From positions 1 through 64,000 of the forward strand of contig JAJYTF010000016.1 in NCBI GenBank assembly GCA_021793155.1: a stretch of DNA of 64,000 nucleotides. Reading direction: 5' to 3'. The DNA comes from Pseudomonadota bacterium (GTDB lineage: Bacteria > Pseudomonadota > Alphaproteobacteria > Rhodospirillales > Magnetospirillaceae). Under the pieces are notes generated by a model. That model had not been told where the DNA came from and made no database searches. It was given only the letters and a program-made list of their open reading frames with translations. Numbering within the stretch: position 1 is the stretch's first letter; every line of letters starts with the position of its first letter. Below are positions 8,632 to 61,182 of this stretch, piece by piece. The position numbers and the translations under genes are program-made.

Positions 8632-9714
8632 TCAGACCTTTGGCACCAGCGGCGTCGTCCAGCCGTGCGGGTCCGGAGCCTCTCCGTATTGAATGCTGAC
8701 GATGGCATCATAGAGCTTTTGGGTCAGTGGGCCGGTCTTGCCGGCGTTGATGGTGATGCGCTCACCCTTGTAACCCAGTTCGCCGACCGGCGAGACCACG
8801 GCCGCCGTTCCCGTCCCCCACATTTCGGCAAGGCGGCCGTCATGGGCGGCACTGATCACTTCGTCGATCGAGATCGGTCGCTCCGAGGCCTTGAGCCCCC
8901 AGTCGCGGCACAGGGTGAGGATCGAGTCGCGGGTCACGCCAGGCAGGATCGATCCGCTTAGCGGCGGAGTAATCACCTCGTCGCCGATCTTGACCATGAT
9001 GTTCATGGTGCCGACTTCGTCGAGATATTTATGCTCGACCCCATCCAGCCAAAGAACCTGGGTGAACCCCTGTTTCTTCGCTTCCTCGGCGGCAAAGATG
9101 CTGGCCGCGTAATTGCCGGCCGTCTTCGCTTCGCCGGTTCCCCCTTTGACGGCCCGCACATAGGTGTCGGTCGCCAGGATTTTCACCGGGTTGATGCCCT
9201 CGGCATAGTAGGAGCCGACTGGCGAGAGGATGAGAAAATAGGTATAGCTCTTGGCCGGGCGCACACCGAGGAACGGTTCCGTCGCGATCACCGTCGGCCG
9301 CATGTAGAGCGCCGTACCGCGCGTCCTTGGGATCCATTCCTGGTCGACGCCCACCAGGGCGTGGAACGACTCGAGGATGTTGGCCGGATCGAGCGCAGGA
9401 ATGCAGAGCCGTTGGCAGGATCGGTTCAGGCGTTCGGCGTGCTTGCCGGCACGGAAGAAGCGAATTACCCCGTCGGTGCCGCGATAAGCCTTAAGCCCGT
9501 CGAAGACCGCCTGGGCGTAGTGCAGGACCGCGGTGGCCGGGTCGAGGGAAAACGGCTGATAAGGCACAACGCGCGGATCGTGCCACCCCTTTCCATCCGT
9601 GTAGTCCATGACGAACATGTGGTCGGTGAAGACAGTGCCGAACTGTAGACGGTCATCGGCGGGATGGGCTTTCAGCTCGGCGGCACGGGTGACGGCAATG
9701 GGGGCCAAGGCCAT
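8632..9714 (-). CDS. ilvE: Branched-chain amino acid aminotransferase
   Basis: A 360-residue class IV PLP aminotransferase that interconverts leucine, isoleucine and valine with their 2-oxo acids. The PLP lysine lies in GGTGEAKTAGNYAAS; LWLDGVEHKYLDEVGTMNI and GSILPGVTRDSIL are the conserved blocks of the long (BCAT2-like) subfamily. ATG 9714 is preferred to the TTG at 9735 because GAGG lies upstream in the leader and MALAPIAV is a natural start. It is transcribed divergently from a MarR-family regulator, with 80 bases between them, so that regulator may act on it. Confidence 0.92.
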   Translation of the reverse strand: MALAPIAVTRAAELKAHPADDRLQFGTVFTDHMFVMDYTDGKGWHDPRVVPYQPFSLDPATAVLHYAQAVFDGLKAYRGTDGVIRFFRAGKHAERLNRSCQRLCIPALDPANILESFHALVGVDQEWIPRTRGTALYMRPTVIATEPFLGVRPAKSYTYFLILSPVGSYYAEGINPVKILATDTYVRAVKGGTGEAKTAGNYAASIFAAEEAKKQGFTQVLWLDGVEHKYLDEVGTMNIMVKIGDEVITPPLSGSILPGVTRDSILTLCRDWGLKASERPISIDEVISAAHDGRLAEMWGTGTAAVVSPVGELGYKGERITINAGKTGPLTQKLYDAIVSIQYGEAPDPHGWTTPLVPKV

Positions 9715-12405: not shown

Positions 12406-13734
12406 ATGACCATGGCCCCTGCGACGACCTCCACCGATACCGCGACCGCCAAAGCCGAGAATCCCGATGCGCTTGCCCGCAAGGAAGTCACGCGCATGCT
12501 CAAGGGACCCGTCGCCGACAAGTTCAAGGCACTGATCCCCCCGCTGGCGGGACAGCCTGACGCCTATCGTACGGTCATGGAATCACCAGAGCTTCTCGAT
12601 GCCTGCTTCAAGCTGTTCCATATCAAGCGCGATGCCTTCGCCGAATTTCTGGTGGATGCCGCCGGCAGTCCGGTGTCTGACGACGATACCCGCCTCAAAT
12701 GCGGCCGTTCGGTCAACGAAGTCATCGGCATGGCGGTGCGAACCGGCATGCGTTCCTACGCCGAACTCTATTTTGGCGACCCCATCACGCCCCCCAAGAC
12801 CAAAAATGCCGCAGCGCCAGCGACAGCGGCAGCCAGGAAGCCGGCCACCAGATCGGGCCAGTTCAAACTGATCGACGTCAGCCGGCTGGCCGCGTTATTC
12901 CGGCGCAATCACGGCGCCGACAGGCCGCTGAAAGCCGGACAGACGAATTCGGGGCGCTTCTATACCTCGATCAAGGACGCCCTGGACTACGAATGGCAGG
13001 TGCGGTTCTTTCCCATCTATGTGCAGATTCCCGGCCATGTGTTCGAAAAGCTGGGGATTGGCATCACCCGCATGGACACCGAAGAACGTCTCCAGCGCCT
13101 GGGGGAATTGGCGATCACCAATATCCAAAAGGCGGAATCAGTGTTGAAGAACCCCGAACTGTTTCGTGAGATGATCGACAACAACGTATTGGCGTCGGCC
13201 ACCGTCTCCGAACTGGGCGAGCACGGGTTCCAGAACGTGCATGACGCGCTGGAACATCTCGACGCCAAGAAGAAGTGGGACGTACTGGCCAACAAGGACA
13301 CCGCTTTGCGCCTCCACGGCGACAAACGCATTACCAAGCATGACATTGTCGCGCTGGCCAATTATCTCGACGTGCTCAACGAATTCGCCCTGGACGCCAT
13401 CTTCGACCTGGGCCTGAACCGCGACCAGATGCAGATGTTCCTGAAGACCGCCGAAGAAAATCTGGGCCGGGCCCTGTTCCTAGCCCTTTTCGGCCCGGTG
13501 CAGAGTGTCATGCCGGAGGACCACGACGAACAGCAGAAGCTGCGCCGCTATCAGAACTTCACCCAGTCGGCCCTGCGCAACCTGGTGAATGCCGTCAAGC
13601 AACTGGAGGACAACCTGCGTCGAAGTGGCGGCGAATCGGCCATCGAAGAATGCCTGGCCACGGTCTGCCGCTCACGCCGGATCGACCTCGAGAAGGAGAT
13701 TAAGAAGCTGGCGCCCGGCTCGCTGGGCGCATGA
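12406..13734 (+). CDS. Unknown 442-residue protein
   Basis: Not recognised. A large soluble protein with an Ala/Thr-rich linker at about residues 115-130 (AAAPATAAARKPAT) between a helical N-terminal part and a longer C-terminal helical part. No signal peptide, membrane segment or catalytic motif is apparent. The frame extends to a GTG at 12358, but the first 16 residues there look non-coding; ATG 12406 or 12412 is more credible, with no strong ribosome binding site for either. It follows the kinase by 69 bases and might be read through from it. Confidence 0.65.
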   Translation: MTMAPATTSTDTATAKAENPDALARKEVTRMLKGPVADKFKALIPPLAGQPDAYRTVMESPELLDACFKLFHIKRDAFAEFLVDAAGSPVSDDDTRLKCGRSVNEVIGMAVRTGMRSYAELYFGDPITPPKTKNAAAPATAAARKPATRSGQFKLIDVSRLAALFRRNHGADRPLKAGQTNSGRFYTSIKDALDYEWQVRFFPIYVQIPGHVFEKLGIGITRMDTEERLQRLGELAITNIQKAESVLKNPELFREMIDNNVLASATVSELGEHGFQNVHDALEHLDAKKKWDVLANKDTALRLHGDKRITKHDIVALANYLDVLNEFALDAIFDLGLNRDQMQMFLKTAEENLGRALFLALFGPVQSVMPEDHDEQQKLRRYQNFTQSALRNLVNAVKQLEDNLRRSGGESAIEECLATVCRSRRIDLEKEIKKLAPGSLGA

Positions 13735-13753: not shown

Positions 13754-13960
13754 AGTGGTCCGCGCCAGACGCTTGGTTCCCGGGCGTCTGGATCAGGCGG
13801 CCCACCAACTAACTGAATTGTGGTGAGAATCTGACGCGGCTTGCGACCGGCGGTCGTTGGGGCCGCGGCCAAGCGCGCGGAGGCGCGCGCCCGGCGAGGG
13901 CAAATCCAAGAGCCGAAGGCCAAGGATCCCCTTGGATCCACCCCAGGATTGGGAAGTAGA
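13754..13960. repeat. Structured intergenic repeat, copy A1, plus GC-rich module
   Basis: 13754-13826 is one of three full copies of a dispersed element (others at 26214 and 42131). It has a 12-bp hairpin CCAGACGCTTGG/CCGGGCGTCTGG (13765-13791, paired throughout if G-U is allowed), then GGATCAGGCGGCCCACC and the module ending GAATTGTGGTG. Unlike the other copies the left edge is TAGAGTGG, not CTAG. Downstream a GC-rich stretch contains CCCGGCGAGGGCAAA, shared with the giant palindrome at 55060-55074. The region separates the convergent unknown gene and phasin gene. Confidence 0.7.
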
Positions 13961-22842: not shown

Positions 22843-22997
22843 CCCCAGGCGCCGGGCGGGCGGGCGGGCTTCCCGACCGGAACGAGGCAGAGCCTCGTGA
22901 CTAGCGCGTTGAGCGCGCCGCAGCGAGCACCGCAGGGCGCAGCGAGGAAAGCCAAGCCCCGCGGATGCGGGGCGCCCGGCGCTTGAGGGACCACTAT
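22843..22997. repeat. Structured GC-rich intergenic element after prs
   Basis: Starts at the TAG-containing end of prs. It contains ACGAGGC-AGA-GCCTCGT and GCCCCGC-GGAT-GCGGGGC hairpins. Its flanks pair: CAGGCGCCGGGCG near the left end and CGCCCGGCGCTTG near the right (one mismatch). The right edge reads GGGACCACTA, like the right edge GGACCACTA of the element at 26214-26406. It is probably another member of the same class of palindromic elements, though it lacks the CCAGACGC module. Confidence 0.55.
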
Positions 22998-23001
22998 AAA
23001 A

Positions 23002-25476: not shown

Positions 25477-26217
25477 ATGGCTCGGAATTTCTGGGGCGAA
25501 ATCAAACAGTTCAGCGCGGCGGTAGCCCTGGTCCTGGTCTCGCGGACGGTGGTCGCTCAGCCGTTCTATGTTCCTTCCGGTTCGATGGAGCCGACGCTGC
25601 AAATCGGCGACGAATTGCTGGCCAGCAAGTTCGCCTACGGCTACAGCCGTTACTCTCTGCCCTTCGCCCCCGGCCATTCGACACCCGAGCGGCTGCTCGG
25701 CCGTCTGCCCGAACGCGGCGACGTGGTGGTGTTCCGCCTGCCCCGCGACGACGAGGAAGTCTATGTGAAGCGGGTGATCGGCCTTCCCGGTGACCGCGTC
25801 CAGATGCGTGGCGGGCGCCTGTGGATCAACGATGCTCCTCTGCCGATCCGCGCCGACGGCGTCGGCCAGGTTGAGCTGCAGAACGGCCAGACGGCGCCGG
25901 CCGGCCGTTTCATCGAGACCCTGCCCGGCGGCCGCCAACACGCCATCTTCAAGCTGACCGAAGCCGGCCCGCTGGACGATACACCTGTCTACGAGGTGCC
26001 GAAGGGGCATCTGTTCATGATGGGCGACAACCGCGACAACTCGCTGGACAGCCGGGTCTCCGCCGCCAAGGGTGGAGTCGGTTTCGTGCCGGTGGAAAAC
26101 CTGATCGGTCGGGCTGACGTGATTCTCGGCTCTTGGGACTTCCTCGTCACCGGCCATCCGGTTTCGGCTTGGCTGTCGGGAATCCGGCTGTCCAGATTCT
26201 TCTCCCGCATTGCCTAG
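25477..26217 (+). CDS. lepB: Signal peptidase I
   Basis: A 246-residue inner-membrane serine peptidase that removes Sec and Tat signal peptides. The N-terminal membrane anchor is followed by SGSMEPTLQIGDELLASKF with the catalytic Ser36; the catalytic Lys is in VYVKRVIGLPGDRV and GHLFMMGDNRDNSLDSR is the conserved box E. Start ATG 25477. The TAG stop (26215-26217) lies inside the CTAGTGG left edge of an intergenic element, so the last codon context was set by that element. Confidence 0.94.
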   Translation: MARNFWGEIKQFSAAVALVLVSRTVVAQPFYVPSGSMEPTLQIGDELLASKFAYGYSRYSLPFAPGHSTPERLLGRLPERGDVVVFRLPRDDEEVYVKRVIGLPGDRVQMRGGRLWINDAPLPIRADGVGQVELQNGQTAPAGRFIETLPGGRQHAIFKLTEAGPLDDTPVYEVPKGHLFMMGDNRDNSLDSRVSAAKGGVGFVPVENLIGRADVILGSWDFLVTGHPVSAWLSGIRLSRFFSRIA

Positions 26218-26406
26218 TGGCCCCCCCCCAGACGCTTGGTTCCCGAGCGCCTGGATCAGGCGGCCCACCGACTAATTGAATTGTGGTGCGAAGCGGGCGA
26301 TTCTGCGCGTCAGGATTGAGCAATTTCTATAGATATTAAATTACGCGAATATGTTGCCGGCGGGCAGTGAAGGCCTGCGCAGGCTCTGTCGGAGTCGGAC
26401 CACTAG
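26214..26406. repeat. Structured intergenic element, copy A2, bounded by CTAG
   Basis: Left edge CTAGTGGCCC (26214) and right edge GGACCACTAG (26406) are inverted copies with one mismatch. Inside are the shared hairpin CCAGACGCTTGG/CCGAGCGCCTGG (one A-C mismatch), GGATCAGGCGGCCCACC and the module ending GAATTGTGGTG (to about 26288). A unique 110-bp AT-richer stretch follows. The left CTAG contains the lepB stop codon. The form fits a nonautonomous insertion with a TA or CTAG target duplication. Confidence 0.75.
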
Positions 26407-42130: not shown

Positions 42131-42253
42131 CTAGTGGTCCGCCCCAGACGCTTGGTCCCCAAGCGCCTGGATCAGGCGGCCCACCAACCAATTGAATTGT
42201 GGTGAAAATTCGACGGCTGGTGGCGGTACCATCCGTCGGATTTTCACCACTAG
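42131..42253. repeat. Structured intergenic element, copy A3, bounded by CTAG
   Basis: 123 bp with CTAGTGGT at the left and ACCACTAG at the right. The shared hairpin CCAGACGCTTGG-TCC-CCAAGCGCCTGG is at 42145-42171, followed by GGATCAGGCGGCCCACC and the GAATTGTGGTG module. The right part is a second inverted repeat, GTGGTGAAAATTCGACGG (42199-42216) against CCGTCGGATTTTCACCAC (42233-42250), one mismatch in 18. The right CTAG supplies the TAG stop of bamB (minus strand). The whole element separates der from bamB. Confidence 0.8.
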
Positions 42254-53545: not shown

Positions 53546-54370
53546 TTAGCCTGCATTCCGCAAGGTTTGAGCGAGGACGTTATGAAGGTGCGACGCGGCC
53601 ACCGGTTTTTGCAGCACGACCACGCCGTGCCCCCGGCTCTCGCGCAGTCGGCCGGCGGTCGCATCACCGGTGATGATGATGCTGGGAATGGGGGCATTGT
53701 ACAGTCCTCGGATCGTGGTGACAGCCGACGTCCCGGTACGCCCGCCGGCAAGGCGGTAGTCGGCGATGATCCCCGCCGGCTGACGGCCGCTGCGCCGCAA
53801 TTCGGCGATCGCCTCGTCTTCCGACGGCGCGGCCACGACCTCGAATTGCCAGGCTTCGAGCAGCATCCGCAACCCCTCGAGCACCTGTTCCTCGTCGTCG
53901 ATGACCACCAGCATCCGGCGGTATCGCTCCACACCGGCAATCCCGGCCAGAGGGACCCGCAAGGCGAAGCGGGTCCCGGTGCCGGAGCGGCTTTCGATCC
54001 TCATGGGGTGGCATAGCAGCGACGCCAGCCGCTCGACCACGACCAAACCAAGACCAAGCCCGAGATCAGAACGTTCGGCAACGGCTCCTCCGCGCCATGC
54101 GCGTATTCCAGGCCCGGTGTCGCGCACCTCGATAGCCAACGCTGCGCCGTTTCGCCTGGCCCCCACCAGGACCCGCCCCCGTGGCGTATAGGCGATGGCG
54201 TTGGCCACCAGATGGTCGAGGATTTGCGCCAGCAGCGGCGGGTCGGAGCGGATGCGTGCCGTAGACTGTACGACCTTAAAATCAAGGCCATGCCGCTCCG
54301 CGGCGGGTGCAAACCGGCGTTCTATTCGCGAAAGAAGCGGCTCGATACAGAACTCGGTCGCTGTGACCAT
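53546..54370 (-). CDS. Truncated hybrid sensor: HATPase plus receiver, no HisKA
   Basis: A 274-residue protein. Residues about 1-135 form a histidine kinase ATPase domain (LDHLVANAIAYTPRGRVLVG with the N box, VRDTGPGI G1 box, LGLGLGLVVVERLA G2 box). A receiver follows (MLVVIDDEE; phosphorylatable Asp in IIADYRLAGG; ITGDA; LQKPV). The sequence MVTATEFCIEPLL corresponds to the end of a kinase HisKA-ATPase linker, so the sensor and HisKA parts are missing. The region upstream shows no in-frame domain. It may be a remnant or be expressed from ATG 54370, which has GGAG upstream. Confidence 0.75.
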   Translation of the reverse strand: MVTATEFCIEPLLSRIERRFAPAAERHGLDFKVVQSTARIRSDPPLLAQILDHLVANAIAYTPRGRVLVGARRNGAALAIEVRDTGPGIRAWRGGAVAERSDLGLGLGLVVVERLASLLCHPMRIESRSGTGTRFALRVPLAGIAGVERYRRMLVVIDDEEQVLEGLRMLLEAWQFEVVAAPSEDEAIAELRRSGRQPAGIIADYRLAGGRTGTSAVTTIRGLYNAPIPSIIITGDATAGRLRESRGHGVVVLQKPVAASHLHNVLAQTLRNAG

Positions 54371-54609: not shown

Positions 54610-54897
54610 ATGGGCAAAGTCATATTACTCTGCGCAATTGTCGGTCTGCTGGCAGGCTGTGCCGAGAAACGGCCACCGATACAATCTGGGGACAATTTCG
54701 TCTTTCTCGCCAGTGACAGCATCTTCGGCCCCAGCACCGCGGATGCCGACGTAGCGGCGCGGTCCTATTGCGCCGCCCGAGGCAAGTTCGCGCAACTCGA
54801 ATCGCGCGAACGGCCGCCTGAGATGCGGGACGACATTTTCCCCGAATATGCCGTGATGACCTACCGCTGCCTGGCATCCTCCGCGGCCGGGCCCTAG
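54610..54897 (+). CDS. Small predicted lipoprotein
   Basis: A 95-residue lipoprotein with signal MGKVILLCAIVGLLAGC, lipobox LAGC (Cys17). Mature part acidic with two Cys. ATG 54610 is chosen as the start of the signal; the frame reaches 54538 without a ribosome binding site. The TAG stop (54895-54897) is inside the CTAG left edge of the giant palindromic element. Function unknown. Confidence 0.72.
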   Translation: MGKVILLCAIVGLLAGCAEKRPPIQSGDNFVFLASDSIFGPSTADADVAARSYCAARGKFAQLESRERPPEMRDDIFPEYAVMTYRCLASSAAGP

Positions 54898-55102
54898 TGC
54901 CGTGACTCAATCAAAGGGCTCACGGCACCAGGTTTCCCATAGCCCCTCGCCGGGCGGGGCCATCCGGCCCCTTGGCCGCGCCCTCAACGGGCGCTGGAAC
55001 AAGGAAACCGGCCAACCAGCCGCCATTGAGGCGGCGGCCAAAGGGGCCGGATGGCCCCGCCCGGCGAGGGACAAAAACCAACTGATCGAATTGTGGTGAC
55101 CC
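54894..55102. repeat. Giant palindromic element, copy A4, CTAG at the left edge
   Basis: Starts CTAGTGCCGTGA, with the hairpin GTGCCGTGA/TCACGGCAC (54897-54928). Then comes a very long inverted repeat: CCTCGCCGGGCG... at 54945-54979 pairs with ...CGCCCGGCGAGG at 55034-55069, 35 bp with a single bulged base, extended outward by one G-C and inward by CCTCAA/TTGAGG. The right end carries the module CCAACTGATCGAATTGTGG shared with the A1-A3 copies. The left CTAG holds the stop codon of the lipoprotein. The HPt gene starts three bases after the end. Confidence 0.8.
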
Positions 55103-55105
55103 GCC

Positions 55106-55456
55106 ATGACCGATGACGACGCCGTCGACCTGGCCCTGCTCGGCGAACTCTGCGAACAGCTCGGCGGGGACGTGGTCTCGGCCATTGCCGAAAGCTATGC
55201 AGCGAACAGCCGTCAACTCCTGCGGATCATTGCCGACCGCGGGAACGATCCGGTGGCCCGCCGCCAGGCGGCCCACAGCCTGAAGGGGGCCAGTGGCTCA
55301 GTCGGCCTGGCCGGCGTGGCGCGTCTGTGCCGGGACATCGAGACAGCATTTCGCGACGGCGGCGGCGATGTCGCCGAATCTCTGGTGGCCCGCCTCCCCC
55401 AGGCGATCGAGGACGGCCAGGCTCTCTTGCGCATCCATCTGGCGATGGCGCCTTAG
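55106..55456 (+). CDS. HPt-domain phosphotransfer protein
   Basis: A 116-residue four-helix HPt protein. RQAAHSLKGASGSVGLAGVA holds the phosphorylated His (AHSLKGA). Stand-alone HPt proteins relay phosphate between hybrid kinases and response regulators. It lies near the truncated HATPase-receiver protein at 53546, on the other strand. Whether they interact is inference. Start ATG 55106. Confidence 0.85.
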   Translation: MTDDDAVDLALLGELCEQLGGDVVSAIAESYAANSRQLLRIIADRGNDPVARRQAAHSLKGASGSVGLAGVARLCRDIETAFRDGGGDVAESLVARLPQAIEDGQALLRIHLAMAP

Positions 55457-58845: not shown

Positions 58846-58864
58846 GCCGCCCGTCCACGGCGGC
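58846..58864 (-). terminator. Hairpin between the cobalamin riboswitch and cobT
   Basis: On the minus strand GCCGCC and GGCGGC form a 6-bp stem with a 7-base loop, with GGCC then TTGGACTTTT after it. It lies directly after the riboswitch and about 30 bases before the cobT ATG, so it is a candidate expression platform, as a terminator or by masking the ribosome binding site. Confidence 0.5.
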
Positions 58865-58879
58865 GCCACAACAAAGTCC

Positions 58880-59062
58880 CGGCCGGTCTTCTGGCTTAGG
58901 ATCAATCCCTCCGAACCCCTTCCCGGCCTTCGCCAGTGGGTGTGCGCCCGGAGAGTCCCCATTCACAGCGTTGGGCACGCGGCGGCTTCTCACCGCCTTC
59001 CCGATTGTCCCGCCGAAAACGGCAGGCACCGGAACTTAGCCTGTTTTTGCCAGAACCCGTCG
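58880..59062 (-). ncRNA. Cobalamin riboswitch controlling cobT
   Basis: On the minus strand the consensus blocks appear in order: GTTCCGGTGCC, AATCGGGAA, GGCGGTGAGAAGCCGCC, the GCTGTGAATGGGGA core, CCACTGGCGAAGGCCGGGAAGG, and the B12 box AGCCAGAAGACCGGCC (58882-58897). It lies between the minus-strand promoter region near 59070 and cobT. Binding of adenosylcobalamin would be expected to reduce cobT expression. The 5' boundary is approximate. Confidence 0.93.
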
Positions 59063-59143: not shown

Positions 59144-59149
59144 CAGGGC

Positions 59150-61182
<2,033 letters not shown>

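Follow-up and report, generated by a model that had tools for sequence, protein, structure and literature searches.

The long palindrome between a small lipoprotein gene and an HPt gene in this Magnetospirillaceae genome very probably arose when a short mosaic mobile element, non-coding and non-autonomous, inserted in this lineage. The stem of the palindrome consists of a repeated unit present twice in inverted orientation, a feature that the initial annotation missed. The palindrome lies at 54894-55102 of the window, the 64,000-nucleotide stretch of DNA analyzed here. The element would consist of a 5′ hairpin arm that starts with CTAG, a linker that holds two inverted units of about 55 nt (unit B), and what remains of a second arm.

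An inverted-repeat search found perfect arms at 54944-54973 and 55041-55070, 30 nt each and 100% complementary. No other perfect inverted repeat in the window comes close to this length: the runner-up has 17 bp (spacing within 150 bp). The initial annotation reported a 35-bp arm with one bulge, and the sequence agrees (54945-54979 against 55034-55069, 35 and 36 nt, with one bulged A); also present is the inner stem extension, CCTCAA at 54982-54987 and TTGAGG at 55026-55031. The region 54894-55102 is predicted to fold as RNA at -143.4 kcal/mol (z -11.4), with 0 of 200 shuffles equally stable, and the other strand at -151.9 kcal/mol (z -11.9).

The flanking genes are as first described. The lipoprotein gene (54610-54897, +) encodes the lipobox LAGC, and the HPt gene, which follows the element directly (55106-55456, +), matches PF01627 (E 4.9e-13). 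The 5′ arm, common to many copies, is hairpin A (CTAGTGCCGTGA...TCACGGCACCAGG, 54894-54932, +; 54893-54932 in the inverted-repeat search), which is the second hairpin noted earlier on the 5′ side. The lipoprotein stop codon TAG (54895-54897) is part of its initial CTAG, and the arm also contains GACTC, a GANTC-type site, at 54904-54908. Sequence and comparison with other copies delimit the linker TTTCCCATAGC (54933-54943, +; family form TTTAYCATAGY). Beside the lipoprotein-HPt pair, 53546-54370 (-) encodes a protein with histidine-kinase ATPase and receiver domains; this neighborhood, including an AsmA gene, is partly conserved in one congener (G004).

The first copy of unit B occupies 54944-54998 (+), an assignment that rests on covariation and on a match to our covariance model R1 at 54932-54998 (83.1 bits, E 2.1e-18), this copy being a member of the model's training set. 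It comprises the arm CCCTCGCCGGGC (54944-54955), a hairpin 1 stem (54956-54961/54966-54971) with the loop ATCC, TTGGCC (54972-54977), and a hairpin 2 stem (54978-54983/54989-54994) with the loop TCAAC. A spacer (54999-55014) separates it from the second copy, which is inverted (55015-55070, -; R1 match 55015-55082 on the minus strand, 78.2 bits, E 3.1e-17). Hairpin 1 is identical in the two units. They differ mainly by compensating bases in hairpin 2 (stem GCGCCC/GGGCGC in the first, GCCGCC/GGCGGC in the second) and by one inserted A, which is the bulge seen earlier. The family module previously noticed on the 3′ side is real: in comparison with other copies, ACAAAAACCAACTGATCGAATTGTGGTGA (55071-55099, +) contains the end of B, a linker, and the first bases of arm D. 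Arm D is a remnant in this copy (full D reads CTAGTGGTGAAAATCCGACGG...), and the 3′ remnant, ACTGATCGAATTGTGGTGA, corresponds to the E-D linker and the first bases of D.

A genome search for further copies, proposed in the initial annotation, returned 80 segments matching the 209-bp stretch at about 40 places in its own genome. Matches to the stretch occur in 22 of the 41 genomes searched (its own and 40 relatives). Copies in the genome are modular: hairpin A (CTAGTGC...GCACTAG), the linker, the palindrome, ...CAAAAACCAA, and, last, one of the 3′ arm types C, D, and E. Unit B may stand alone, repeat in direct tandem arrays, or form inverted pairs. With the stem letters left free, a pattern search matches at least 117 stretches in named genomes; among the matches listed are Magnetospirillum, Paramagnetospirillum, Telmatospirillum, Phaeospirillum, Tistrella, Asticcacaulis, and Rhodospirillales MAGs. 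At E <= 1e-4 the covariance model matches 13 of 190 sampled genomes of the class; the matches are strong in a few distant families and weak in others. Its weaker matches expose a wider type, CCCTCAAACGCCGGGCG...TTGGCT. A plasmid search gave matches in Tistrella and Asticcacaulis only, covering 25-33% of the query. That the palindrome is an assembly artefact, a false inverted duplication, has a negligible chance of being right. The genome is a draft and several copies are located at the ends of contigs (C63, C50, and C41, for example), but the same unit is present in independent genomes and named isolates, and the two halves are not identical.

The window holds other members of the family. A single unit B at 13846-13912 (-; R1 71.7 bits, E 1.1e-15) is fused to an E-linker-D piece (13760-13840). 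At 22938-23001 (-; R1 22.9 bits, E 0.00057), a diverged member of the wider family, of the CCCTCAAGCGCCGGGCG...TTGGCT type, adjoins a 17-bp perfect hairpin. The stretch 26214-26290 contains an E arm and linker of the type found in D-E elements (discussed below), without the D arm. In two species, family elements lie directly downstream of an ftsZ-like gene (LDIPAFLRRQ), at slightly different positions (L068 and L009). At the Rfam gathering threshold there is no match at the palindrome, and elsewhere in the window the only matches are a cobalamin riboswitch and a TPP riboswitch. These two are arranged back to back (58864-59048, -, and 59146-59270, +). Literature searches on the motif and on Magnetospirillum repeats or MITEs returned nothing relevant.

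Unit B is about 55 nt long and consists of the arm CCCTCGCCGGGC, a 6-bp hairpin with an RTCC loop, TTGGCC, a 6-bp hairpin with a TCAAY loop, and TGG. Among 32 non-redundant units, 96.9% of stem cells are paired, compared with 74.8% after shuffling, and 8 of the 12 stem pairs have changes on both sides. The covariation score for this set is 0.476, compared with 0.120 for shuffled and at most 0.070 for slid alignments; the slid control preserves relatedness and the shuffles do not. The pattern search, in which stem letters were free, yielded 27 distinct stems among exact matches, with 97 of 108 pairs being Watson-Crick pairs (49 after shuffling).

Inverted pairs allow pairing within a unit to be compared with pairing from arm to arm. 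Five of the 15 inverted pairs of the genus (L009, L268, L269, L279, and L282) have unlike hairpin 1 stems on the left and right. In these five, self-pairing inside the units is retained at 57 of 60 positions and arm-to-arm pairing at 42 of 60. Since the unlike stems are each still self-complementary, what has been conserved is pairing within each half-unit and not the giant arms themselves. The initial annotation had reasoned that arms diverging independently, without covariation, would speak against selection on the structure. This is the behavior of the long stem, whereas the small hairpins do covary.

Comparison with relatives reveals sites that lack the element. Three species of the same genus (G002, G003, and G004) have the orthologous lipoprotein and HPt genes side by side, and the gap of 1 to about 33 bp between them contains no palindrome. 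A second case comes from another genus: G023 carries a 129-bp element in tandem, and the orthologous site in G013, with flanks 87-89% identical, does not have it. Near-identical copies of this 129-bp relative are found at about 40 places in G023, so this form probably amplified recently there. Presence and absence fit insertion or loss, and loss in three congeners would be less likely than one insertion. We consider it very likely, as part of the mobile-element explanation as a whole, that the palindrome was inserted in this lineage between two genes of an operon. A regulator selected at this particular locus, such as a transcription roadblock, an attenuator, or an RNase III site, is disfavored and very unlikely: it would fit the 6-bp distance to the HPt start codon and the extremely stable predicted RNA stem, but the same operon lacks the palindrome in three congeners, and this is one of about 40 genomic places.

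The earlier proposal that so long a stem is hard to maintain by drift, and is thus a selected giant structure, does not hold. It is contradicted by this absence from the operon in three congeners, by the unlike halves in a third of the inverted pairs, and by the state of the copies in the genome itself, where roughly half of the genuine unit pairs are collapsed stubs (about 13 of some 25, counted from a pair list that also includes chance pairs). The stubs have inner lengths of 1, 14, 19, or 24 nt, and as read from the sequences, their junctions coincide with short direct repeats. The giant stem may have arisen incidentally, from two B units lying in inverted orientation, and the center of the folded stem may be lost by slippage between short direct repeats, leaving short stubs.

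The left end of the window copy is CTAG; its right arm is truncated, hence the right end and any target duplication are not readable there. A sister element built of arms D and E and a linker, with no unit B, supplies both ends. A complete two-armed example, identified from sequence and an end search, lies in the window at 42131-42253 (+) with CTAG on both flanks. The 21-nt E end has 76 matches in the genome (61 exact), including the one at window position 42131, and the reversed control has 0. One D-E element (L043:9853-9978) is located near the 3′ end of a RAYT-type gene and replaces its C-terminus. A paralogue that is 99% identical has the empty site gcgagcCTAGtgggcg (L043:12115-12121), compared with CTAG...CTAG at the filled site. 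CTAG is thus seen on both sides of the insert for the D-E element, and at the left end for the window copy with its truncated right arm. The suggestion in the initial annotation of a hairpin-forming mobile element gains support from the many copies, the empty orthologous sites, and this empty and filled pair of a neighboring module.

The position of units relative to genes was counted with a simple codon-usage gene caller (mechanical calls) on named loci, for gaps of at least 60 bp. Gaps that hold units are convergent in 37 cases, tandem in 42, and divergent in 2, the corresponding totals over every such gap in these loci being 83, 203, and 94 (Fisher p 6e-7 for the depletion of divergent gaps and 2e-5 for convergent gaps); one MAG (JAJZGK) supplies many of these loci. 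Relative to tandem genes, unit orientation is even, with 22 in the same and 20 in the opposite direction. The pattern suggests that units are tolerated in 3′ regions and removed from promoters, and it does not resemble a strand-specific RNA signal.

Under a rather doubtful alternative, unit B would be conserved for its function as an RNA or single-stranded DNA element, for example as a 3′-end RNA stabilizer or a protein-binding hairpin pair, and would spread as useful cargo. The very strong stem covariation, the fixed arm, loops, and TTGGCC, the identity of about 90% between genera, and the strong placement in 3′ regions are all in its favor. A sense-strand RNA signal would be expected to show the strand preference that is lacking here, however, and the unit is missing at orthologous sites and patchy in the class (present in the 13 genomes noted above). 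Stem covariation can also be produced by hairpin-templated mutation or by recognition by a mobilizing enzyme.

Unit B resembles the REPIN/BIME type of repeat, in which REP doublets form hairpins with compensatory changes, as described in PMC3116915. Shared features are an inverted pair of a palindromic unit with a spacer that forms a hairpin, compensatory changes, many intergenic copies, and the additional occurrence of single units and tandem arrays. Y1 tyrosine transposases (RAYT), which move inverted REP doublets, are present in the genome. That the palindrome is itself such a doublet is nevertheless unlikely and largely refuted. Unit B is larger, has two sub-hairpins, and sits inside a two-armed element. 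REP ends carry a GTAG or CGTC tag according to PMC3733652, and no such tag is present on B (consensus CCCTCGCCGGGCG...TTGGCC). The 12-nt core motif of the unit is not found within about 1.5 kb of Y1 loci, save for a single match in L233, and no Y1_Tnp is detectable in three genomes that are rich in B (G007, G009, and G011). RAYT-type genes on C58 adjoin their own, different repeats. Three RAYT-type genes (L043:4290-5131, 9079-9104, and 12745-12787) are located beside short repeats, GTCACCGTAATCC, that are unrelated to unit B.

The mobile-element explanation may also be compared with IS630/Tc1-type MITEs (RUP, Correia/NEMIS, ERIC; TA or CTAG targets). The elements are likewise short, non-coding, intergenic, and of high copy number with terminal TA, and CTAG flanks the insert on both sides in the D-E element. 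Insertion polymorphism with empty sites, a criterion for MITEs, is observed here. They differ in having two separate arm hairpins in place of one end-to-end stem, and no matching autonomous IS was found among the PF13358 and PF01609 loci of the genome. Two candidate parents were rejected: the intact IS630-like locus (L096) and the DDE_Tnp_1 (PF01609) loci have no matching terminal repeats.

Two alphaproteobacterial repeats provide further comparisons. RIME, described by Osteras in 1995, is reportedly a mosaic, palindromic, intergenic repeat of rhizobia, and by this description our family shares these traits; the 1995 work is cited in PMC2873474. The original description of the CIR repeats is said to be that of Chen and Shapiro in 2003. 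CIR, the CcrM-associated intergenic repeats of Caulobacter, are about 110 bp long with two hairpin arms and a linker, TA termini, and an exposed GANTC, as given in PMC2229807; they are also treated in PMC10969869. Compared by description, the elements here are similarly alphaproteobacterial, intergenic, and about 110-130 bp long. Two arms surround the linker in many copies (hairpin A and C, D, or E around B), the 3′ arm being a remnant in the window copy. As to TA at the termini, CTAG is present at the left end of the window copy, whose right end is truncated, and at both ends of D-E copies. One arm of CIR carries GANTC, for which the counterpart in the window copy is the GACTC of hairpin A. 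Across the family, GANTC occurs in 7 of 56 upstream and 11 of 56 downstream arms, compared with 3 of 56 controls, a weak enrichment, and we rejected it as a defining feature. The linker here differs in that it holds one or two B units. By analogy, the element may be called a CIR-like mosaic, as distinct from CIR proper; the literature searched gave no description of its structured linker module.

Under the mobile-element explanation, an enzyme supplied in trans may recognize the arms and insert elements at CTAG/TA. The CTAG sites of existing copies may themselves act as landing sites, which would give rise to mosaics. A further reading, which we put forward tentatively, is that unit B is a so far undescribed structured element (its arm, RTCC hairpin, TTGGCC, and TCAAY hairpin) distributed over at least Rhodospirillales, Tistrella, and Asticcacaulis. 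It may be recognized by a dedicated protein or enzyme via its two freely covarying hairpins and be carried as cargo of CIR-like elements.

The giant selected palindrome gives way to a repeat whose biology is concrete and can be tested, built on a strongly covarying unit of two hairpins. This unit has no Rfam match at the gathering threshold in the window and is spread over distant alphaproteobacterial families. The inverted pairs of one genus reveal directly which pairing persists, that inside the unit or that from arm to arm. The family accounts for mosaic palindromes that would otherwise be taken as regulatory structures.
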